NCBI GenBank assembly: GCA_025362115.1
Contig: JANYIK010000166.1
Coordinates: forward strand, 1 to 36,729
Direction: 5' to 3'
DNA: 36,729 nt
DNA from: Methylophilaceae bacterium
Lineage (GTDB): Bacteria; Pseudomonadota; Gammaproteobacteria; Burkholderiales; Methylophilaceae
Shown here: positions 1,723 to 13,693 of the stretch, piece after piece
How positions within the stretch are numbered: the first letter of the stretch is position 1
Layout of the letters: each line of letters starts with the position of its first letter
Position numbers and translations under genes: made by a program
Notes under the pieces: model-generated
The model's database searches: none
The model's input: the letters and a program-made list of their open reading frames with translations, nothing else
What the model was told of the DNA's origin: nothing

Positions 1723-3336
1723 ATGAAACTACTTGGTCTTCGCATACCGTTCATGCGCTTGCCCAGCCTTGAAAAGCTAGGAATCAAGCTGCCTAAAGTC
1801 AAGATCAGCCCTGCGGTGCGGATTAGTTTTGGCTTGATTTCGCTCGTCATGGGCTGGATCTTGCTGCTGGACATGATGGTGGGTTTTTGGCCGGATACCG
1901 GTAAAGTCACGATTCAGTTGCGCGCCAAAACCAGCGAAATGCTGGCCATCCAATCCGCACAATACATCCAAGCCGGAGATTTCGTCGGCCTCAAAAAATC
2001 CTTAGAAAAAAGCGTACATGAGCAAACAGGGGTGCGCTCAGTGGCAATGCGCCATAAAAGTGGCAAAATCGTGCTGCAAGTAGGCGACCACGCACTTTAC
2101 TGGAAACCAAAAACTACCGCCTCCACACAAGATTTTGCACGTTTAGGCATTAGCGCAGGCAACCAGCCCTGGGGCGAAATTGAAATTGCATTTACACCTT
2201 CAACTCCTCAAACCCCCTTGGATTGGCTGAGGAAAAAAGCTGTCGTTTCCTTCTTGCTGCTGATAGTGGGCGGCTTTGTGATGTATGTGTTCTATCTGCG
2301 CGGTGTATTTTCTTATCTTGACCCTTCTACCGTCATCCCCGATCGCGTCAGTTCAGCCTTCGATGCGTTTAGCGAGGGCGTGATGATGGTGGATGTCGCT
2401 GGTAAGGTGATGATCGCCAATAAGATGTTCCGTAGCTGGGGCGAGGATATGGCGGGAAACCTGTTCGGCAAGCAGGCGAGTACGTTGTCGGTGGTTAAAA
2501 ATACTATGGGGGTAGACCCCAAAGCCTATCCTTGGACTAAATCCATGGAGGCTTTGCAATCGGTCAATGGCTGGCCGCTCAAGATTGCACTGCCCTCAAA
2601 AGAGAGTATCAAAGTCATCGTCAACTGCTCGGTGATTCAGGATGCCGCAAACACGGTACGTGGTTGTATGGTGACATTTGCTGACGTGACCGAGTTGGAC
2701 AACTTGAACCAGAACTTGAACGCAGCGATGGGTAAGCTGAAAAAATCGCAAGACGAATTGGAAGAAAAAAATGAAGAGCTTTACCGTTTGGCTACGCGCG
2801 ACCCGATGACGGGGGCTTTCAATCGGCGCGCCTTTTTTGCCGACGCCGAAAAGCTGCTGGTCGAGTACAGGGAGGGCAACCGTCCGATGTGCGTCGTCAT
2901 GTCGGATATTGACCACTTCAAGAAATTCAACGATGTCCACGGCCACGCCGTGGGAGATTTGGTGATTGTTGCTTTTTCCAAGTCATTGTCTGTACCTCTG
3001 CGTACCACGGACATGCTATGTCGCTACGGCGGCGAAGAATTCGTGGTGCTGTTGCCGGGAGCCAACAAAGAAGTGGCGATGGGCATCGCAGAGCGGCTGC
3101 GGCAAGAGGTTGAGCAGCGCGCAGGCCCCTCTATTCGCCATACTACGCCGCTTAACATTACCTCCAGCTTTGGCGTGGCGCAGTTGGAGCCTGACGTGAA
3201 AGACCTGACCATGTTCATAGACCGCGCTGACCAAGGGCTCTACGTGGCGAAGAAGAGCGGCAGAAATCGGGTGAAATTCTATGGTGAGCCGATAGAAGAA
3301 AACGCTCCACCGGAAGAGCCTCGGGATTTGCATTAG
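1723..3336 (+). CDS. Membrane diguanylate cyclase (periplasmic sensor-PAS-GGDEF)
   Basis: This 537-residue protein should make c-di-GMP from two GTP. A first membrane segment lies at about 34-55, then a periplasmic region to about 170, then a second membrane segment at about 172-192. A PAS-like domain covers about 208-320, a short coiled coil about 325-355, and the GGDEF domain about 358-520. The active-site loop is GGEEF (436-440), with SDIDHFK at 394-400 supplying the metal aspartates. An RxxD inhibitory site (RTTD, 427-430) lies exactly five residues before the loop, so product inhibition is expected. The gene starts 70 bases after the repeat-protein stop. A possible -10 (TATAAG, 1684-1689) lies in that gap, with no convincing ribosome site. 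Its position suggests that it supplies a c-di-GMP signal for the adjacent adhesin/export genes; this link is inferred. Confidence 0.93.
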   Translation: MKLLGLRIPFMRLPSLEKLGIKLPKVKISPAVRISFGLISLVMGWILLLDMMVGFWPDTGKVTIQLRAKTSEMLAIQSAQYIQAGDFVGLKKSLEKSVHEQTGVRSVAMRHKSGKIVLQVGDHALYWKPKTTASTQDFARLGISAGNQPWGEIEIAFTPSTPQTPLDWLRKKAVVSFLLLIVGGFVMYVFYLRGVFSYLDPSTVIPDRVSSAFDAFSEGVMMVDVAGKVMIANKMFRSWGEDMAGNLFGKQASTLSVVKNTMGVDPKAYPWTKSMEALQSVNGWPLKIALPSKESIKVIVNCSVIQDAANTVRGCMVTFADVTELDNLNQNLNAAMGKLKKSQDELEEKNEELYRLATRDPMTGAFNRRAFFADAEKLLVEYREGNRPMCVVMSDIDHFKKFNDVHGHAVGDLVIVAFSKSLSVPLRTTDMLCRYGGEEFVVLLPGANKEVAMGIAERLRQEVEQRAGPSIRHTTPLNITSSFGVAQLEPDVKDLTMFIDRADQGLYVAKKSGRNRVKFYGEPIEENAPPEEPRDLH

Positions 3337-3381: not shown

Positions 3382-6126
3382 TTAGTGCGAAGTAATGCGC
3401 CCAAACTCAGCCGCTATCTTGGTTGCGTATTTTTCAAAGTCATCGGCCACCAGCGGTTTACTGAACAAAAATCCTTGGATAATTTCACAGCCCAAATCTT
3501 TTAGATATATGTGCTGATGTTCAGCATCCACGCCTTCGGCAATCACCGCTTTTTCAAATGTGTGCGCCACGTCCACAATGACTGACACGATCTTTTCTGA
3601 GGGCTTGCCTATGCCCAGCACGAAGGAGCGGTCTACCTTGAGGATATCGAACGGTAGCAGTCCTAGGTAGCTCAAGCTGGAATAGCCAGTGCCAAAGTCG
3701 TCAATGGCGATGAGAAAGCCTTCTTTTTGCAGGTTACGCAGCACATCTACCACGCCGCCGGTGGCGTCTACAAACATACTCTCGGTAATTTCCAGCTCGA
3801 TATTGGCGGTGGAAACGCCATAGTGCTTGAGCGTGGCCAACACTTCCTCGGTGAAAGTGGCGCGGCGCAAATCCTGACTGGAAATGTTGACGGCGATACG
3901 CGGCGGAGCAATGCCTTTGGTTGTCCAATCCACGAATTGCTTGCACGCGATGTGGCGTATGGTGTCGCTCATTTTGATGATGATGCCGGTTTCTTCGGCG
4001 ATGCTGATGAATTCGCCCGGATTCACCAGTCCGCGCGTGGGGTGCTGCCAGCGTACCAGCGCTTCAACGCCAGCAATCGCGCCGCTACGTAAGTCAATTT
4101 GCGGCTGATACATCAGAAATATCTCGCCATCAGTATTCACCGCCTGACGCAGGTCGTGTTCCAATTTCAGGCGCTCCACTGCCTTGGAATTCATGTGTTC
4201 TTCGTAATACACGTATTGGGTCTGGCCGGACGCTTTAACCCGCGTCATCGCCATCTCGGCATAGTGGAACAGGTTGTCTATGCTCTCGCCATCTGTGGGG
4301 TAAATGCTGATACCCATCACCGCGCCTAGGTGCATGGTTTGGCTTTCATAAGAGAAATTGTCGCCAAACACGCTCACCAGTTTTTCTGCCACAAATCCGA
4401 TCTCGTTAGAGTTGTTGAGGTCAGGCAGCACCACCACAAATTCATCATTGCCAAAGCGCGACACCACGTCGGATTCACGTAATTTGCTGAGTAGCCGTTG
4501 CGCCACTTCATTCAGTACGTGGTCACCACCAGCATAGCCTAGGCTATCGTTGACTTTTTTGAAGCCCGCCAAGTTGATGTAGATAATGGCCACCAGCAAT
4601 TTTTTACGCCGTGCACGTGAGATTTCTTGTGACAGACGGTCGCGGCAGAAGGCGCGGTTGGGCAAGCCGGTTACTGGGTCAAAGTGCTCCTGCATGTAAA
4701 GTTCTTTGCCGCGCATCACCGAGGTCAGCGCCACGCCTAGTCGGTCTGCAAAGGCGCGCGCAAAATGGTGCTCACCTTCGGTGAGTGACTTGTCTTGCGC
4801 TAGGCCGAAATGCAGAATTGCAGACAGTTCTCCTTCTCGATATACCGGAAACAGGTGCAGTCTGGAGGCGCCGAATTCGATCAGTGGCTTGAGGAATTCC
4901 ACCTTATCGGGATGCTCTATAAGCACGCCATTAGGATCTCCGCTCAGACTTTCTTTGAACTTGCTCTGCAAAGGAGGCAGGCTGACGGCATGGGTTTCGT
5001 CTAAAGTATTCACCCAAGTGCTTTGCTGGTCTTGCTCCGGTGCAGTGTCGTCGAGATGCGTCACCGCCACCAGCACGCAGGGAATTACTTTTGGCACGTT
5101 GGTGAACACCAGTTCTATGATGTTGTTAAAATTGGCGTTGGAGAGGATGGCGCGGTCAAACTCGTCCATTGCCCGCACAATGTCTAAAGGGTGGGACACC
5201 ATGAGTTGCCCGCCGACGCCGTGCGGGGTGGCTCTGGCACGGCGCGGACGCAAGGTCACCAGCCAGGCCAAAAACAGCGCCAGCACGATGCTGGCGGCCA
5301 TCACTCCGTCTGAGGTATTGCCGGCAAACATAGCGCTCGGACTGGCGGCGATGATGTTCCAGTCGTTTGTTGCAAACTGATCGCGTAGCGGTAGCGCGAT
5401 ATAGCTGGCTTTGCCTCCGGCGTTGCCATCATTCCAGTGTAATTCCCCAGATTGCAGTCGGAGAGGTTTGCGTAGTGTTTGTATCAGTGCGTTGTCCGGC
5501 GTGCTGGATCTGTATAGCACCTGCTGGTCGCGCTGATTGAGGACGAGTAGAGGATTACCGCTTGGCGATTCGTTCTTCCACAGATAGGCGGGTGACAACT
5601 CCGCGCTGAGCAAGTCAAAGCTATTGCTTTCACTGCCGTCATTATCTTGCGCCACGCTACGCAGCAGGATGATTCTGGCGTTGCCAGTAGTGCTTGGTAG
5701 CGCGATGAGTGCAGACTCCCCATGTGATAGATGTATTTTTATAGCTTCGGTTTGATCGGCCAGAGTGAGTTGCGTACCCAGCAGAGCCGTAATATGGCCA
5801 GATTCGTCTACATAGTTGACGGCCTTGAAGTAGGGCGTAGAAATCTGTAACAAAGAAGACGAGTTGGGGTCGCGCGCCGCGCGCTCCAAGGCGTGGTCAG
5901 CGGTACGCAGGCGATCTTGCAGAGTTTGCTTGAAGCTGGTGGCTTCTTGCAGCAGTGTGGCTTGGTGCGTGCCTTGCAAGGTAGAATCGCCTTTAGAAAA
6001 GAAAATGAAGGCGATGCAGGTCACCAGTAGTGCCAGCACCAAGGGGATTCTTCTTTGCGTGAAGCCGAATTGTGTAGAATCAGAACGCATAGCTTCCATA
6101 ATACTTGCAGTTGCTTCAAACTGCAT
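3382..6126 (-). CDS. GAF-GGDEF-EAL protein, probable c-di-GMP phosphodiesterase
   Basis: Residue numbers count from an upstream TTG at 6132; the first ATG (6126) is preferred, and ATGs at 6099 and 6090 are also possible. No start has a clear Shine-Dalgarno. A membrane segment at about 29-46, a periplasmic sensor region and a second membrane segment at about 277-295 precede a GAF-like domain (about 315-475). The GGDEF domain (about 480-640) is degenerate: the loop reads GNDEF (561-565) and the first metal aspartate is Asn520 (INLAGF). It keeps an RxxD site (552-555). The EAL domain (about 655-905) keeps the expected catalytic residues: E690 of EAL, N749, E781, D811/D812 in IDDFGTG, K832 and E866. 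The likely activity is c-di-GMP hydrolysis, with the GGDEF half as a regulatory GTP or c-di-GMP site. The gene converges on the diguanylate cyclase and diverges from the HlyD operon across only about 40 bases. Confidence 0.92.
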   Translation of the reverse strand: MQFEATASIMEAMRSDSTQFGFTQRRIPLVLALLVTCIAFIFFSKGDSTLQGTHQATLLQEATSFKQTLQDRLRTADHALERAARDPNSSSLLQISTPYFKAVNYVDESGHITALLGTQLTLADQTEAIKIHLSHGESALIALPSTTGNARIILLRSVAQDNDGSESNSFDLLSAELSPAYLWKNESPSGNPLLVLNQRDQQVLYRSSTPDNALIQTLRKPLRLQSGELHWNDGNAGGKASYIALPLRDQFATNDWNIIAASPSAMFAGNTSDGVMAASIVLALFLAWLVTLRPRRARATPHGVGGQLMVSHPLDIVRAMDEFDRAILSNANFNNIIELVFTNVPKVIPCVLVAVTHLDDTAPEQDQQSTWVNTLDETHAVSLPPLQSKFKESLSGDPNGVLIEHPDKVEFLKPLIEFGASRLHLFPVYREGELSAILHFGLAQDKSLTEGEHHFARAFADRLGVALTSVMRGKELYMQEHFDPVTGLPNRAFCRDRLSQEISRARRKKLLVAIIYINLAGFKKVNDSLGYAGGDHVLNEVAQRLLSKLRESDVVSRFGNDEFVVVLPDLNNSNEIGFVAEKLVSVFGDNFSYESQTMHLGAVMGISIYPTDGESIDNLFHYAEMAMTRVKASGQTQYVYYEEHMNSKAVERLKLEHDLRQAVNTDGEIFLMYQPQIDLRSGAIAGVEALVRWQHPTRGLVNPGEFISIAEETGIIIKMSDTIRHIACKQFVDWTTKGIAPPRIAVNISSQDLRRATFTEEVLATLKHYGVSTANIELEITESMFVDATGGVVDVLRNLQKEGFLIAIDDFGTGYSSLSYLGLLPFDILKVDRSFVLGIGKPSEKIVSVIVDVAHTFEKAVIAEGVDAEHQHIYLKDLGCEIIQGFLFSKPLVADDFEKYATKIAAEFGRITSH

Positions 6127-6168
6127 TACCAAATAGCATAGCTTTAAGCTAAAAAAGTGAGATAACGA

Positions 6169-7542
6169 TTGAAAGCTGACGCAGAACTTATCTTAGAATT
6201 TCAGGCCACCTTGCTCTCGCATCCGCAGTTTGACGAGGCAGCTACGGCCTTCGCCACCGAGCTGGCGCTTAGGCTGGGCTTCGATCGCGTTGCCATAGGC
6301 TTGATTGAGCGCGGGCAGGTGGCGGTCAAGGCCATCTCGCATAGCGCGGATGTGCTGGCTAAATATGAGGCACATCGCGCTATCGCCAATGCTATGGACG
6401 AAGCCATAGAGCAAGCCGCGGTGCTGACTTCCACTGAAGTCGGAGGCAAAACGCCGAGAATTTTGCTGGCGCACAAAGCGCTCGCCAGATCCACTGGCAA
6501 TCAGATATGCACTATTCCGCTCGCCAATAACCATGAAATCTATGGCGCTATCGCCTTAGAGCGCGGCGGTGGTACGCCGCTGGTACAAGAAGATATAGAG
6601 GCCTGTGAAACCATCGTCAGCCTGCTGGGGCCGCTGCTGTTGCTCAGATGGAGCGAGGCGCGTCCTTGGTATATGCGCTTGATGAAGCTGGGCTTGGGCA
6701 GTATGAAGCGCGGTTATATGTTGCGTAGATTCCTGTTCAAAACGCTTTTATATTCAACTGTGGTGGTGTTCGCGCTGCTGTTGTTTTTCCCCGTCACCTA
6801 CAACGTCAGTGCGCCAGTGCGGCTGGAAGGCCTGATTCAACGAGCATTGGTGGCACCCGAAGCCGGATTCTTGGAGAAATCCTATGTACGGCCTGGCGAC
6901 CGGGTTAAAGCCGGTCAAGTGCTGGCCGAACTTTCTGATCAGGAGTTGCAACTGGACAAGCGCAAATGGGAAAGCGAGCTGGCACAGCATGAAAACGCTT
7001 ATGGCGCAGCGCTGGCACAGGCTGACCGTGTGCAACTGGTCATCAATCAAGCCAAAGCTGATGAGGCGCGCTCACAACTGGAGTTGACTGAACAGAAAAT
7101 TTCCCGTTCCAAATTGGTTGCACCGTTCGATGGCATCATTATCAAGGGCGACTTGCGGCAATTGCTAGGCACGCCAGTGCAACGCGGCGATGTGCTGCTC
7201 GCGGTGGCTCCGGTCAACGCTTACAGGTTGATGATAGAAGTGGACGAGCGCGACGTATCTTATGTGCAATCCGGCCAGACGGGTAGAGTGGCCTTGGTCT
7301 CTTTGCCCGACAAAACCTTGCCGTTCCAAGTCCTGCGTATCACGCCAGTCGCCGCTACCAAAGAGGGTCGCAACTTCTTTGATGTGGAAGCCACTTTGAC
7401 TACTGCATCACAAAGCGCCCTACGTCCGGGATTGGAAGGTGTCGCCAAGATCAACGCTGGCAACCGGCCATTCATTTGGATATGGACGCATCGTGGCTTG
7501 GATGCGGTACGTATGACCTTATGGAACTGGGGCATTTTCTAA
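6169..7542 (+). CDS. GAF-domain HlyD-type periplasmic adaptor
   Basis: This 457-residue protein has an unusual layout. A cytoplasmic GAF-like domain (about 10-160) is followed by one membrane helix (about 188-208) and a periplasmic membrane-fusion region. That region has a split lipoyl domain (about 223-256 and 313-346) joined by a short coiled-coil hairpin (about 257-312), then a beta-barrel domain (about 350-430). HlyD-type adaptors link an inner-membrane pump to an outer-membrane channel. The short hairpin suggests a small adaptor rather than a full HlyD. The start is TTG at 6169; a weak GTGAG lies about eight bases upstream and there is no in-frame ATG for the next 75 codons. The gene leads a three-gene operon, with 12 bases separating it from the next gene. 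The GAF domain could sense a small ligand and gate the system, but no ligand can be read from the sequence. Confidence 0.88.
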   Translation: MKADAELILEFQATLLSHPQFDEAATAFATELALRLGFDRVAIGLIERGQVAVKAISHSADVLAKYEAHRAIANAMDEAIEQAAVLTSTEVGGKTPRILLAHKALARSTGNQICTIPLANNHEIYGAIALERGGGTPLVQEDIEACETIVSLLGPLLLLRWSEARPWYMRLMKLGLGSMKRGYMLRRFLFKTLLYSTVVVFALLLFFPVTYNVSAPVRLEGLIQRALVAPEAGFLEKSYVRPGDRVKAGQVLAELSDQELQLDKRKWESELAQHENAYGAALAQADRVQLVINQAKADEARSQLELTEQKISRSKLVAPFDGIIIKGDLRQLLGTPVQRGDVLLAVAPVNAYRLMIEVDERDVSYVQSGQTGRVALVSLPDKTLPFQVLRITPVAATKEGRNFFDVEATLTTASQSALRPGLEGVAKINAGNRPFIWIWTHRGLDAVRMTLWNWGIF

Positions 7543-7554
7543 AGGGTTTCCTAG

Positions 7555-9702
7555 ATGCGTGAATCTCTATTCAGCCCGCTCTGGCATCGCTATTCGCAAC
7601 AGCGTCCGCAGTTGCGTTCCAATGTAACTGTTCAACAGCAGGAATACCGCAAAAAGATGTGGTATCTGCTCATCAACACCACCAACGGCAATCACTATCG
7701 CATCAACCATGTGGCTTATCAGTTTGTTGGGCGTTGTGATGGTCAGCACACGGTGCAGGTGGTGTGGGATAGCGTGTTGGAAAGCTTGCAGGACGACGCG
7801 CCGACGCAGGACGAAATCATTCGCCTGTTGACCGAGCTGGATCAGCGCGACTTGCTACGCTATGAGGCGCTGCCCAATATCAAAGGCATGTTCAGCCGCA
7901 AAAAAGAAAAGGTCAAAAAGCAGCGCCGCGCCACCATCAATCCTTTTGCTATGAAGCTTTCTTTATGGGATCCCAGTGCTTTTCTGGATAAATTGTATTG
8001 GCTACCGAGGCTGATTTTTAATCCGCTGACATTTCTGCTGTGGCTAGTCGCCGTGGGCTTTGCACTGATGTCGGCTTCTGCCAATTGGGACGAACTGACT
8101 ACACATTTCAGCAGCAACATGGCTACACCCAGATATTTATTGCTGACTTGGCTAAGCTTTCCCTTCATCAAGGCGCTACACGAGCTAGGCCACGCATTGG
8201 CGGTACGCAATTGGGGCGGGCAGGTGCATGAAACCGGCATCACCTTGTTTTTGATGACTCCCGCACCCTACGTGGATGCCTCTGCCGCCAGCGCTTTCCG
8301 CCGCACTTCCCATCGCGCCACCGTGGGGGCGATAGGCATCATGGTGGAGTTGTTACTGGCCTCCATCGCCATGCTGGTGTGGTTCAGCAGCCAACAGGGC
8401 ATCATTCACGACCTCGCCTTCGTCACCATGTTCATCTGCGGCGTTTCCACCTTGGTATTCAACGGCAATCCCCTGATGCGCTTCGATGCCTATTACATCT
8501 TGTGCGATGTCTTTGATTTGCCCAATCTTGCCACGCGTAGCAGGATGTATTGGGTCAATCTGCTCAAAAGACTGGTGCTGGGCGCTCGCAGTGTGGTGTC
8601 TATGGACAAAGCCGAAGGTGAAGGCAAGTGGCTGTTTTTTTATGCGCCATTATCGTTTGTGCTGTCGCTGACATTGATGAGTTACGCGGTGTTGTGGCTG
8701 GGCTCGCAGTCCTTGGTTGTTGGCGTGATTGGCGCGCTATTTGTGCTGATTTCTCTGGTATTGATGCCCTTGTACGGCCTGATTCGCGACATCGTGTCTT
8801 CCGCCGCCTTGGGGGCGACACGTGCACGTGCAAAAATGTTGATTACGTTGGGCTTGGGTTTGATTGTAGCTGTTCTGGTATGGGTTCCGGTGCCTTTCAG
8901 CTCAAGCGCGCAAGGCGTGATATGGATTCCCGACGAGGCTCGCATTCGCCCCGAAACCGAGGGCTTTATCAGGCAAATTCGCGCCAATCACGGTGATCCG
9001 GTTGAAATAGGCGAAGTGCTGTTTGTACTGGAAGATTCTAGCTTGCAGGCCAAATACGAGCAGTTGAAAACGCAGATTGCGGGCTTGCAGTCCGACCAGT
9101 TCAATGTGGTATTCAGTGACCCCAGCCGCGCCGTGGACATTTCTCAGAAGATTGTGAAGGTGGAGGCTGAATTGAAGCATGTAGAGGAAGATTTGGCGGG
9201 GCTGATGGTACGTAGCAAAGCCAAAGGCGTGCTGGTACTGCCACATCAGCAGGACATGCCTAACGTATTTGTGAAAAAGGGCGAGCAGCTCGGTTATGTG
9301 TTGGCGCAGGATGCTATCAAAGTCCGGGTCGCCGTGCCGGAACCCGATGCAGCGCTGCTGCGCGAACGTTTGCAGCGCGTGTTGGTGCGCACCGCCGATC
9401 ATCCTGATGAAGTGGTCGTGGCGCAGGTGGAATCGGATACCAACACCGTGACGCATACCTTACCTAGCCCGGCTCTGGGTTATAGCAACGGCGGCAGATA
9501 TGCCACCGACCCCGCAGATAAGGACGGCCTGACCGCCACCGAAGCCGTAGTGCTGTTAGACCTAAAGCTCCCCAGCGCCATGCTGGAACGCGCTGGTGTG
9601 CGCGCCAGTGTGCGCTTTGATCACGGCAACGAACCGATCGTTAAGCAGGTGTATCGCCGCTTGAACCAGCTCTTCCTGCGCTATTTTGCGGCTTCTGGTT
9701 AA
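7555..9702 (+). CDS. PqqD-like / M50 site-2 protease / HlyD fusion protein
   Basis: Three modules occur in 715 residues. Residues about 30-105 resemble a PqqD-type winged-helix peptide-binding domain. A polytopic membrane part (about 150-447, roughly seven helices) carries the M50 zinc motif HELGH (209-213) and the distal motif NPLMRFDAYY (305-314), whose Asp311 is the expected third metal ligand. The C-terminal part (about 450-695) is a periplasmic HlyD-like adaptor with a lipoyl half-motif at about 463-495 and a coiled-coil stretch at about 496-550. M50 proteases cut transmembrane helices, and PqqD domains bind peptide leaders or substrates in RiPP systems. A plausible role is to recognise and cut or release an exported substrate while contacting the first adaptor. 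The stop codon overlaps the next start by one base (TAATG), so translation is probably coupled. The catalytic residues are intact, and activity is predicted. Confidence 0.88.
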   Translation: MRESLFSPLWHRYSQQRPQLRSNVTVQQQEYRKKMWYLLINTTNGNHYRINHVAYQFVGRCDGQHTVQVVWDSVLESLQDDAPTQDEIIRLLTELDQRDLLRYEALPNIKGMFSRKKEKVKKQRRATINPFAMKLSLWDPSAFLDKLYWLPRLIFNPLTFLLWLVAVGFALMSASANWDELTTHFSSNMATPRYLLLTWLSFPFIKALHELGHALAVRNWGGQVHETGITLFLMTPAPYVDASAASAFRRTSHRATVGAIGIMVELLLASIAMLVWFSSQQGIIHDLAFVTMFICGVSTLVFNGNPLMRFDAYYILCDVFDLPNLATRSRMYWVNLLKRLVLGARSVVSMDKAEGEGKWLFFYAPLSFVLSLTLMSYAVLWLGSQSLVVGVIGALFVLISLVLMPLYGLIRDIVSSAALGATRARAKMLITLGLGLIVAVLVWVPVPFSSSAQGVIWIPDEARIRPETEGFIRQIRANHGDPVEIGEVLFVLEDSSLQAKYEQLKTQIAGLQSDQFNVVFSDPSRAVDISQKIVKVEAELKHVEEDLAGLMVRSKAKGVLVLPHQQDMPNVFVKKGEQLGYVLAQDAIKVRVAVPEPDAALLRERLQRVLVRTADHPDEVVVAQVESDTNTVTHTLPSPALGYSNGGRYATDPADKDGLTATEAVVLLDLKLPSAMLERAGVRASVRFDHGNEPIVKQVYRRLNQLFLRYFAASG

Positions 9703-11675
9703 TGGCGAGCGGCATCAAAAACCCAGCCCCCGGCATTCTGCTGGGAAGTTACCCTGAGAAATTCGCTGAATCCCCTACCTTTTTTGCCGCCTTAAAGCGC
9801 AAATTACTCACACTTTATGCTGCGGTTGGTTGGCAGAACGCTAATTCTTATGCGCCACTTCTCAAAAAAATTGCCCAGCACGAGGCCACACTGGCGAATT
9901 TGACCCCATCACAAATGGCAGAAAAAGTACTGGCGTTGCGCCAACAGCTTTCAGTCCATGGCATGACCAATTCTCTCAAGATTGAGGCACTAGCTCTGGT
10001 GAAGCGCACCTGCCAGCGTGTACTTGGTGTAACGCCTTACGATACTCAAGTCACCGCGGCGCTCATCATGCTGGACGGCAAGCTGGCTGAGATGGCCACC
10101 GGCGAAGGTAAGACGCTGACCGCGGGGTTATGCGTGGCGGTTGCCGCATTGGCGGGCATTCCGGTGCATCTCATTACCTCCAATGATTACTTGGTGACAC
10201 GCGACGCAGAAAAGTCACGCCCGCTGTTTGCTGCGCTGGGCTTGAGCGTGGGCAGGGTGACACAGGCGATGGACATGAATGAGCGTCGCGCCGGATATGC
10301 TTGCGACATCACCTATTGCACCGCAAAAGAGTTGGTTTTTGATTATTTGCGCGACCTTGCCGTGGGCGGCAGGCCGCGTTCCGGCTATCACGCACGGGTG
10401 GCAAAGCTAGTGGGTGAGGCCTATCAGCCTGTATTGCGTGGCCTGTGTATGGCCATCATAGACGAGGCCGACAGCATACTCATAGACGAAGCACGGGTGC
10501 CGCTGATTTTGTCGCAAAGCGTCGTGGATCCCAAACAGGTAGATTATTATGGTCAGGCGCAACAATTAGCGGAGCAACTGGAAATAGGGAAAGACTACCA
10601 CCTTAATCGCCACGGCATGTCAGCCAGTCTTACCGATATTGGGCGAGAGAAATTGGAAGAAAAAGCCAAAAACCTAGGCGCTTTATGGCGTAACCGTATG
10701 CACCGTGAGGAGACCATCTGCCAGGCCTTGGCCGCGCAACATTTGTTTCTGCGGGACAGGCACTACCTAGTGCGTGACGACCAAGTACATATCATTGACG
10801 AAATCACTGGCAGACTTTCTCCCGGCAGGGTTTGGTCGCGCGGCCTGCATCAACTCATCGAAATCAAGGAGCAGTGCAAACCCAGTGGTGAAATGCTCAC
10901 CGCCGCACAGATTACCTTTCAGCGCTTTTTTCCGCGCTACCTTAAGCTGGGCGGAATGAGTGGAACGATTAAAGAATCTGCGGGTGAGCTATTTGGCGTG
11001 TTCGGACTGATGGTGGTCAAAGTGCCACTACACCAACCCAGCAAAAGAGTGGTTTACCCCAGTCGAATTTTTAGAAACAAGGCTACGCAGTGGAAAGTGG
11101 TAGTGGAACGTATCCGCCACATGCGCCAAACAGGCCGTCCGGTGCTGATAGGTACCGATTCTGTCAGCGATTCCGAAGCGCTTTCAGAGATGCTGCATAA
11201 GGCTAATTTAGCGCATGAAGTATTGAACGCCAGGCAAGACCAGCACGAAGCTGCCGTGGTGGCCAAGGCGGGTGAGCTAAACCAGATCACGGTCTCCACC
11301 AACATGGCCGGACGTGGTACGGATATTCCCTTGGGGGAAGGAGTGGAAGCTTTGGGCGGCCTGCACCTCATCATTTGTCAGCACAACACCTCGCGCCGTA
11401 TTGATCGCCAATTGTTAGGTCGCTGTGCCAGACAAGGCGACCCCGGCAGCGCAGAGACGCTGATTTCGTTTGAAAAGCCGCTGTTGACAAAGCTTTACCC
11501 TAAGTGGCTTAGCATGTTTGCCGGAGAGCAAGGGTTATCTCAGCCGCAATGGCTAGTCAGGTTGCTGGTATTGTTGCCACAGTGGTTGGAAGAAGCGCAT
11601 CAACGGGCGCAGCGTAAAGAGATGCTGGAGCAGGATGCAAGGCTGGAGCGGGAGTCGTTGACGGCTGGGGATTAG
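9702..11675 (+). CDS. SecA-like ATPase, C-terminally truncated (accessory SecA)
   Basis: This 657-residue protein keeps the SecA DEAD-box motor. Walker A is ATGEGKT (132-138), Walker B is IIDEADSILIDEA (252-264), and NBD2 has TNMAGRGTDI (533-542) and the arginine-finger region RIDRQLLGRCARQGDPGS (566-583), where housekeeping SecA usually reads LRGRSGRQGDPGS. A crosslinking-domain-sized region (about 222-375) sits between the NBD halves. Housekeeping SecA runs to about 900 residues, but this protein ends about 60 residues after NBD2. Most of the helical scaffold, the helical wing/two-helix finger and the zinc-binding C-terminal tail are therefore absent. It is probably a dedicated ATPase working with the two upstream adaptor proteins rather than the general preprotein motor. 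Its 3' end overlaps the convergent HD-GYP-like gene by four bases. Loss of the translocation finger means a changed mechanism, which is not known. Confidence 0.9.
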   Translation: MASGIKNPAPGILLGSYPEKFAESPTFFAALKRKLLTLYAAVGWQNANSYAPLLKKIAQHEATLANLTPSQMAEKVLALRQQLSVHGMTNSLKIEALALVKRTCQRVLGVTPYDTQVTAALIMLDGKLAEMATGEGKTLTAGLCVAVAALAGIPVHLITSNDYLVTRDAEKSRPLFAALGLSVGRVTQAMDMNERRAGYACDITYCTAKELVFDYLRDLAVGGRPRSGYHARVAKLVGEAYQPVLRGLCMAIIDEADSILIDEARVPLILSQSVVDPKQVDYYGQAQQLAEQLEIGKDYHLNRHGMSASLTDIGREKLEEKAKNLGALWRNRMHREETICQALAAQHLFLRDRHYLVRDDQVHIIDEITGRLSPGRVWSRGLHQLIEIKEQCKPSGEMLTAAQITFQRFFPRYLKLGGMSGTIKESAGELFGVFGLMVVKVPLHQPSKRVVYPSRIFRNKATQWKVVVERIRHMRQTGRPVLIGTDSVSDSEALSEMLHKANLAHEVLNARQDQHEAAVVAKAGELNQITVSTNMAGRGTDIPLGEGVEALGGLHLIICQHNTSRRIDRQLLGRCARQGDPGSAETLISFEKPLLTKLYPKWLSMFAGEQGLSQPQWLVRLLVLLPQWLEEAHQRAQRKEMLEQDARLERESLTAGD

Positions 11676-12874
11676 ATTGCCGCTGTTGTTCCCCAGAACT
11701 TGGACATTTGCACGTTTACGCCCGCCATGTCTTTGTACACCTGTTTGACGATATTAAACTTGGAATCTTGGGTTTCGCGTACGATTATTTTTTCTGTGGA
11801 CATGCCGCTGGGGCTGATGGTGACCCGCACTGCCGCGGCACCGGGGGCAGTCCCTTGTTTCAGGACAATGCCAATCTCGCCGCTTTTGAGTAACACGGCG
11901 ATACCGGGTGGGTGGATACCAATCAGCTTGATGAAATGCGGGGCAAGTTGCGGTTTGAAGTGCGTCTGTTTTTCCAGAAACAAGGCGCTCACCGTGTCTG
12001 CAGGCAATGCAGGACGATGCTCACCACGCGAAGTGACTCGGGCGCAATAGCGCTCGGCGAAGCTAATGATATTGGCGTTGAGGGGAATTTCATCGCCTTT
12101 TTTCCCCGATGGGTAGCCGCTGCCGTCTTCATTTTCGTGGTGGTTGAGCACATAACTCAGCCATGCCTCGTTATTGATATCCACCTTCCTTAACATTTCT
12201 ACCCCCAGCACTGGATGCGCGCGCACGGCAGCCATTTCGGCTGGGGTAAGCGGGGTCGTCTTGTTACTCACCTTGAGTTGCAATTTCAACATGCCAATAT
12301 TGGCGGTGAGCGCAGCCGACAGGATGGTCATAATCTCTTCAGGGGTTTGCTCCAGGGCTTGTGCCATCAAGCCCGCGATGATGGCACAGTTGACAGGGTG
12401 GTGATGGGCGTAGCGCATAGCCCCCTGATTGAGAAAAATAGTGGCGATGGCAATTTCTGAATTGAGTTTTAGCGCGTCATAGATGAGCTGAGCGATGCCG
12501 GTGATACGCTCTTCCGCACTCTCTTCCTGTTCTTCCTCTGCTTCTTCCGGCGTTGGAGATGACGCTTCCGTTTCTTTTGCTTCTTCAGTTTTTTCTGTTA
12601 ACGGATTCTGTATGTCTGTGAGTGTTTCCCGCAATAGCTTGTTAGCTTGGTTTATCAAGCGCACCACGGAGGGAGCATTGTGCGGATTTTTTGCGGCGGC
12701 GAGAGCGTCTTCGTCATCGTAAAACAGCTTTTGTGCAGTCAGTTGCGCTAGCAATTGTTCGTTGGTGATGCACTCCCCGGTTTTTAGCGCCACACTGCCG
12801 TCCTCGCGATAGACGTTCCAGCGCATGGGTTTGCCAATGACGGTATTAGCTAGAGAGCAGGAGACTCGAGGCAT
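11672..12874 (-). CDS. Degenerate HD-GYP-domain protein
   Basis: The ATG at 12874 gives 400 residues. The frame extends upstream to 13081, but that extension looks non-coding and overlaps the divergent lipoprotein gene. The N-terminal region (about 1-95) is of unknown type and is followed by a very acidic linker (about 96-122). The rest aligns with HD-GYP domains: a first-helix histidine cluster at 157-159 (AHHHP), HHENEDGSGYP at 245-255, and the usual C-terminal IGIHPPGIAVLLKSGEIG region (318-335). The catalytic HD pair, expected in a LLHDIGK context, is instead AN (191-192, LTANIGM), and the later aspartate of the ADxYDA motif is Glu (AERYCA). It probably cannot hydrolyse c-di-GMP through the standard metal site and may serve as a c-di-GMP-binding or scaffold protein. 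It is convergent with the SecA-like gene. Confidence 0.85.
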   Translation of the reverse strand: MPRVSCSLANTVIGKPMRWNVYREDGSVALKTGECITNEQLLAQLTAQKLFYDDEDALAAAKNPHNAPSVVRLINQANKLLRETLTDIQNPLTEKTEEAKETEASSPTPEEAEEEQEESAEERITGIAQLIYDALKLNSEIAIATIFLNQGAMRYAHHHPVNCAIIAGLMAQALEQTPEEIMTILSAALTANIGMLKLQLKVSNKTTPLTPAEMAAVRAHPVLGVEMLRKVDINNEAWLSYVLNHHENEDGSGYPSGKKGDEIPLNANIISFAERYCARVTSRGEHRPALPADTVSALFLEKQTHFKPQLAPHFIKLIGIHPPGIAVLLKSGEIGIVLKQGTAPGAAAVRVTISPSGMSTEKIIVRETQDSKFNIVKQVYKDMAGVNVQMSKFWGTTAAI

Positions 12875-12964
12875 TGAAAATTCGTTATTTTGAGTTGTAT
12901 GTTGGCAAAGTGTTGAGATGAAGCTAATAGTATTATAGTGGGAGTTTATGGGTGATGTGAGTGA

Positions 12965-13693
12965 ATGCGGGTGCTTAGTCGAGTTTTTATTTTGATGTTG
13001 TTGAGTGGCCTCGCAGGCTGCGTCACCACGCCCCCCGCTGATGCCCCTGTCACCGATAAAGTACCGCACAAAACCGATCAATCTTCTTTTACTCAGCTCG
13101 GCAAGGGTGACCTAGATCGCATGGCGGATGTGGAGATGTCGGAGAATACGCAAAATTTGAAATTGCTGATGACCAAGCTGTACAAGCGAAATCCACATGA
13201 GTTGCACAAGAGCACCTCTGGCACGGTGGAGGAAATGGTGGCTTGGGTGTTTGGTGGTGCTCACGGCTGGAAATTCAAGAAATTAAACGAGGTGCAAGGC
13301 GTAGAGGCGATTCAGCTCGCTTTCAAACCGGATTATGAAGGCGACCGCGTATTACCTTTTATTGTTGGCCTGCAAACCATGCTGATCAAGGCGCACGGGG
13401 GTAAGACGGAATTTTATCTGACTGACAGCATAGAGCCGCAAAACGTTTATAACGCGGCGCGGAATGTGGAGATTGCGGTGTGGAAGCTTTCTACTGACCG
13501 CAGCGAGCAGGGCGAGCTTTATTTACTCAGCAATGAAATCAACGATTCCGAGCGCAACATAAGTTTCGAGCGCGAGTTTGGCAAGATCATCGGGCGGCTG
13601 GATTTGTACGCGGTGACGCTGGAGGAAAAGTCGCAGCGCCTGATTTCACGGGTAACGCAAGGTTTGGCTACAGCCTTGTTTTTGCCGTTTTGA
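12965..13693 (+). CDS. Predicted lipoprotein of unknown function
   Basis: The protein has 242 residues and an N-terminal lipoprotein signal ending in LAGC, with Cys19 as the lipid-attachment residue. The residues after it (VTTPP) do not include the classical Asp+2 inner-membrane retention signal, so outer-membrane sorting is possible. The mature part is mixed alpha/beta with no motif I recognise. It contains phrases such as FIVGLQTMLIKAHGGKTEFY, which suggest a conserved family of unknown function. The gene diverges from the HD-GYP-like gene across 90 bases. That gap contains a possible -35 (TTGGCA, 12902-12907) with an AT-rich stretch (12925-12936), which may form the promoter region. Its place at the edge of the export/c-di-GMP cluster leaves open an accessory role there, but nothing in the sequence proves it. 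Confidence 0.8.
   Translation: MRVLSRVFILMLLSGLAGCVTTPPADAPVTDKVPHKTDQSSFTQLGKGDLDRMADVEMSENTQNLKLLMTKLYKRNPHELHKSTSGTVEEMVAWVFGGAHGWKFKKLNEVQGVEAIQLAFKPDYEGDRVLPFIVGLQTMLIKAHGGKTEFYLTDSIEPQNVYNAARNVEIAVWKLSTDRSEQGELYLLSNEINDSERNISFEREFGKIIGRLDLYAVTLEEKSQRLISRVTQGLATALFLPF

Follow-up and report, generated by a model that had tools for sequence, protein, structure and literature searches.

A HlyD-type adaptor with a predicted cytoplasmic GAF domain in a widespread SecA-like ATPase/M50 peptidase cassette associated with giant proteins

Introduction

In the classical HlyD, MacA and EmrA adaptors only a short segment lies in the cytoplasm. Adaptors of the MacA/EmrA/MexA type serve ABC, MFS or RND pumps and, to our knowledge, have no folded cytoplasmic domain. 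The combination of a GAF domain with a HlyD adaptor is nevertheless already known. It was first reported in 2015, when Kamneva, Poudel and Ward described a locus encoding a GAF-HlyD protein, a peptidase M50 with a HlyD part, a SecA_DEAD protein and a HlyD/biotin-lipoyl protein, and proposed a regulatory and sensory role (PMC4452313). An example of this secondary SecA_DEAD/T1SS-like locus is META1p2402-2399 of Methylobacterium extorquens AM1 (PMC4452313). The broader biological role of the locus was called completely unknown, no substrate was proposed, and the main text uses none of the words giant, cadherin and GGDEF (PMC4452313). The literature searched, which excluded most subscription journals, yielded no subsequent experimental study of this locus. 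The cassette is a little-studied, widespread bacterial gene set, of which GAF-HlyD is one standard part.

The locus and related systems

The window analysed here is a stretch of 36,729 nucleotides from a Methylophilaceae bacterium (contig JANYIK010000166.1); its features are listed in Table 1. As in the locus of Kamneva et al. (PMC4452313), the GAF-HlyD, M50-HlyD and SecA_DEAD genes are adjacent (6169-11675). The further HlyD/biotin-lipoyl adaptor is encoded outside the window but within this genome, on contigs C104/C118, and is 69% identical to that of locus L008. The window locus differs from the 2015 description in also having GGDEF and GGDEF-EAL genes, and its GAF-HlyD protein lacks about 165 N-terminal residues found in most relatives compared. 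A GGDEF cyclase, a GGDEF-EAL protein and an HD-GYP protein surround the export cassette within this one window.

Table 1. Features of the window and of two small contigs from the same genome
Feature	Position	Strand	Evidence or remark
Cadherin-repeat protein, C-terminal part, cut by contig start	3..1652	+	Cadherin_4 1.1e-7; gene order in relatives
GGDEF protein with PAS-like part	1723..3336	+	GGEEF and RxxD motifs intact
Divergent GGDEF-EAL protein	3382..6132	-	EAL and DDFGTG intact; GGDEF reads GNDEF
GAF-HlyD adaptor gene	6169..7542	+	457 aa; TTG start
GAF domain, predicted cytoplasmic	6196..6663	+	Residues 10-165; Pfam on 51 homologues, AlphaFold2, Foldseek
Single transmembrane helix	6730..6786	+	Residues 188-206; hydropathy, charge bias
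HlyD/membrane-fusion part, predicted periplasmic	6787..7539	+	Residues 207-457; Pfam, Foldseek
PqqD-like, M50 metallopeptidase and HlyD protein	7555..9702	+	HELGH at residue 209, NGNPLMRFD at 303
SecA-like ATPase, 657 aa	9702..11675	+	DEAD, preprotein cross-linking and P-loop domains
HD-GYP protein (HHE..GYP), at cassette end	11672-13081	-	Side observation
LEPR-XLL/DUF4347/cadherin giant N-terminus and small adaptor	L141 1-2439 (-), 2624-3202 (-); L140 2082-3140 (+)		On small contigs; same genome as the window

With type I secretion (HlyB-HlyD-TolC) the cassette shares HlyD-type adaptors, TolC-type channels in some related loci, and large repeat proteins as probable cargo. It differs in having a SecA-like ATPase and an M50 membrane protein; the scanned cassette and neighbouring genes include no ABC transporter accompanying the adaptor. 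The high-score match of the SecA-like ATPase to the SecA equivalog model extends only to about position 549. Among the M50 proteins of the cassette the HExxH motif is present in 49 of 50, the exception being a fragment. Nearly all relatives retain both HExxH and N-x-NP-x-x-R/K-x-D, and a PqqD-like domain precedes both; the product of 7555-9702 therefore resembles an active protease that carries a module for peptide recognition.

An adaptor with a folded GAF domain

The TTG start of the adaptor gene was tested as a possible artefact and accepted, as the homologue in congener G001 has the same start; an in-frame stop lies directly upstream of the ORF. The sequence-only reading of this DNA held that the promoter must overlap the divergent GGDEF-EAL gene. 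Such an overlap is likely, because only 36 bp separate the two ORFs (42 bp if the divergent gene starts at its ATG), although a sigma-70 scan found no sigma-70-like site. The equivalent gap in the congener is 70 bp.

The identity of the protein as a HlyD adaptor was confirmed by Pfam (HlyD_D23 1.4e-17, residues 232-396; HlyD_3 1.2e-14). One inner-membrane helix is followed by lipoyl/barrel-sandwich and hairpin domains, as in HlyD/membrane-fusion proteins, and Foldseek likens residues 207-457 to MacA, MexA and EmrA. The adaptor shares the fold of these proteins and adds to it a folded GAF domain on the predicted cytoplasmic side.

Single-sequence scores for the GAF domain are weak, with GAF_3 at 1.5e-4 and GAF at 5.2e-4 (residues 22-153) in the full-length protein, although GAF exceeds its gathering score (23.7 against 22.4 bits) when the domain is scanned alone. 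The doubt that these leave is removed by the family, since PF01590 is matched by 43 of 51 homologous domains (best 1.3e-13). A family profile searched against the PDB also retrieves GAF-containing proteins. AlphaFold2 predicts a confident GAF fold for residues 1-170 (pLDDT 84.0, pTM 0.82); in the full-length model, with an overall pTM of 0.40, the GAF part is confident and the reading is confined to single domains rather than their mutual placement. Among the PDB matches listed by Foldseek for the 1-170 model, all are GAF structures or GAF-containing phytochromes, including the GAF domains of NifA and Lcd1 (E down to 5.7e-7, TM about 0.5-0.67). The GAF-like sequence that had been proposed in front of the membrane helix is therefore real, with its size corrected from about 160 to about 155 residues. 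The accompanying generalisation, that the cytoplasmic part of adaptors is normally short, is true of classical HlyD/MacA/EmrA proteins, but in the GAF-HlyD family a cytoplasmic GAF domain is the rule, and the combination had been reported in 2015.

The N-terminal side of the helix is rich in lysine and arginine in the window protein. Across the family a helix is found in 51 of 54 proteins, with a mean net charge of +2.8 on the N side versus -0.1. The N-terminal side being positive, the GAF domain is predicted to be cytoplasmic. In comparison with congener G001, identity is 65% for the GAF domain and 73% for the HlyD part versus only 17% for the linker and helix, and in the GAF domain dN is 0.24 and dS, at about 3, is saturated. 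The N-terminal region is thus translated and under purifying selection. The ORF at 6169-7542 is confirmed as an envelope adaptor with a folded GAF domain, placed inside the cell by predicted topology.

Distribution and link to giant proteins

The survey covered 398 Pseudomonadota genomes, with 55 loci used for neighbourhood counts. A GAF-HlyD homologue was found in 38 genomes (a count that includes a few matches mainly over the HlyD part, while most cover GAF), M50-HlyD in 84 and LEPR-XLL in 49. M50-HlyD is present in all 38 GAF-HlyD genomes and in 48 of the 49 LEPR-XLL genomes. LEPR-XLL co-occurs with GAF-HlyD in 33/38 genomes (Fisher 7e-31, over 398 genomes) and gave no match in 5/38.

At the level of loci, M50 is present in 50 and the SecA-like gene in 43 of the 55, several of the remaining loci being cut by contig ends. 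The gene order is conserved as giant protein, GAF-HlyD, M50/HlyD, SecA-like, small adaptor and TolC. Throughout the phylum this order is seen both on chromosomes and on plasmids of alphaproteobacteria, and DUF3467 or SapC, a small adaptor and TolC often accompany it. The giants beside the cassette are LEPR-XLL/DUF4347/cadherin proteins whose open frames reach 19,427 codons. Of 34 LEPR-XLL frames listed for genomes with GAF-HlyD, 27 are no more than about 5 kb away from a GAF-HlyD gene. The 19,427-codon LEPR-XLL frame itself (G121:C115, near 112865, minus strand) adjoins a GAF-HlyD gene, provided that the assembly is correct.

In the window's own genome, a LEPR-XLL/DUF4347/cadherin N-terminus adjoins the small adaptor on contigs C104/C118. 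We infer that this N-terminus and the cadherin C-terminus at the window start, which are on different contigs, belong to one gene; giant genes have probably broken the assembly of this genome. The cadherin-repeat protein is a probable export substrate, judged from its Cadherin_4 match and the gene order in relatives.

Since the cassette adjoins giants and co-occurs with them in 33 of 38 genomes, giant-protein export is its likely job, and the cassette probably exports giant surface proteins. As far as the literature searched shows, the association with LEPR-XLL/DUF4347/cadherin giants is new. Should the adaptor instead serve a drug or metabolite pump, with the giants as bystanders, the likeness of its HlyD part to MacA/MexA/EmrA and the five genomes without a LEPR-XLL match would be accounted for. 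This is very improbable, given the strong co-occurrence and adjacency with the giants, and the scanned cassette genes encode no transporter of the RND, MFS or ABC type.

Possible roles of the GAF domain

The conserved residues of the GAF domain are S57, H58, E78, Q82, H102 and E131. In the alignment, H102 falls on the SP-x-H histidine of phytochromes, a chromophore-pocket residue. A bilin- or phytochrome-like function was rejected because the family has no cysteine at position 101. The sequence-only reading proposed that a ligand inside the cell could gate the envelope bridge; the domain would then bind a small cytoplasmic molecule and thereby control opening and closing of the export conduit. 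The GAF fold, the conserved residues, the alignment of H102 and the sensory role suggested by Kamneva et al. (PMC4452313) are consistent with such gating, which is plausible yet tentative. The c-di-GMP enzymes neighbouring betaproteobacterial loci point the same way, but GGDEF/EAL genes adjoin only 5/55 loci, every one of which falls among the betaproteobacteria on the tree, and c-di-GMP coupling was rejected as a family trait on this count. A Pfam scan of the window protein found no c-di-GMP receptor domain, and nothing specific supports c-di-GMP as the GAF ligand.

Motor docking fits about as well; the coupling may run through a ligand, through docking or through both, and the first two are rated equally likely. 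H58, E78 and H102 are retained by 45/45 proteins from genomes with the SecA-like motor and by 1/19 from genomes without it. This tracking, new as far as the literature searched shows, represents one or two independent events on the tree (one starred pair, two in all), and coupling of the motif to SecA independently of ancestry was rejected for this reason. A ligand-free GAF platform might do nothing more than recruit the motor or the substrate to the membrane complex, a possibility held with some doubt. The motif counts agree with it, and the searched genomes of motor-less members have canonical SecA only. Against this, the division of both motif and motor follows a single deep clade, and ancestry alone can account for their link. 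In addition, the motor-less sister group L125-L139, in whose searched genomes the SecA-like motor was not found, keeps a domain of equal length before HlyD. Several of its members match GAF (best PF01590 1.8e-5), and the S-H/E/H residues are absent. GAF therefore cannot serve SecA docking alone.

The reading we favour, and consider probable, is that GAF-HlyD is one adaptor of a SecA-like-ATPase/M50/HlyD machine that exports giant surface proteins, with GAF coupling the conduit to the cytosolic side. Its basis is the observed domains, fold, linkage, co-occurrence and conservation, along with the predicted topology; from these the substrate, the complex and the coupling role are inferred. Three components, namely the HlyD part of this adaptor, that of the PqqD-M50 protein and the small separate adaptor, would line a periplasmic conduit that leads to a TolC-type channel. 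The GAF domain would hang in the cytoplasm below the inner-membrane end, most likely coupling through contact with the SecA-like motor or the substrate, and a small ligand in its pocket may switch the coupling.

A more specific and speculative version is an ABC-free route, in which the short SecA motor and M50/HlyD would drive LEPR-XLL giants through a multi-adaptor TolC conduit, GAF being a cytoplasmic coupling switch with key residues that co-vary with the presence of the motor. If true, this would be a widespread bacterial export system for some of the largest predicted proteins, with a SecA-type motor replacing the ABC transporter. The GAF adaptor would then be the obvious place to seek its on-switch. 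Through the proposed LEPR-XLL substrate, the biological role of the locus, described as completely unknown in 2015 (PMC4452313), also becomes directly testable.

Variation at the N-terminus

Most SecA-linked relatives have about 165 extra residues before GAF, which are missing from the group of the window protein and from a few further members; presence or absence of this region changes five times on the tree. It is called GAF-like only, because GAF_3 is matched by 4/42 and GAF by 2/42 sequences and the hhalign probability is 31%; a second GAF domain was dropped as a firm identity. This weakly GAF-like region, absent from the window protein, is new as far as the literature searched shows. The cassette of the L125-L139 group consists of a small adaptor, a HlyD protein of 440-510 aa with a GAF-like N-terminus, M50-HlyD and large cadherin-like frames.
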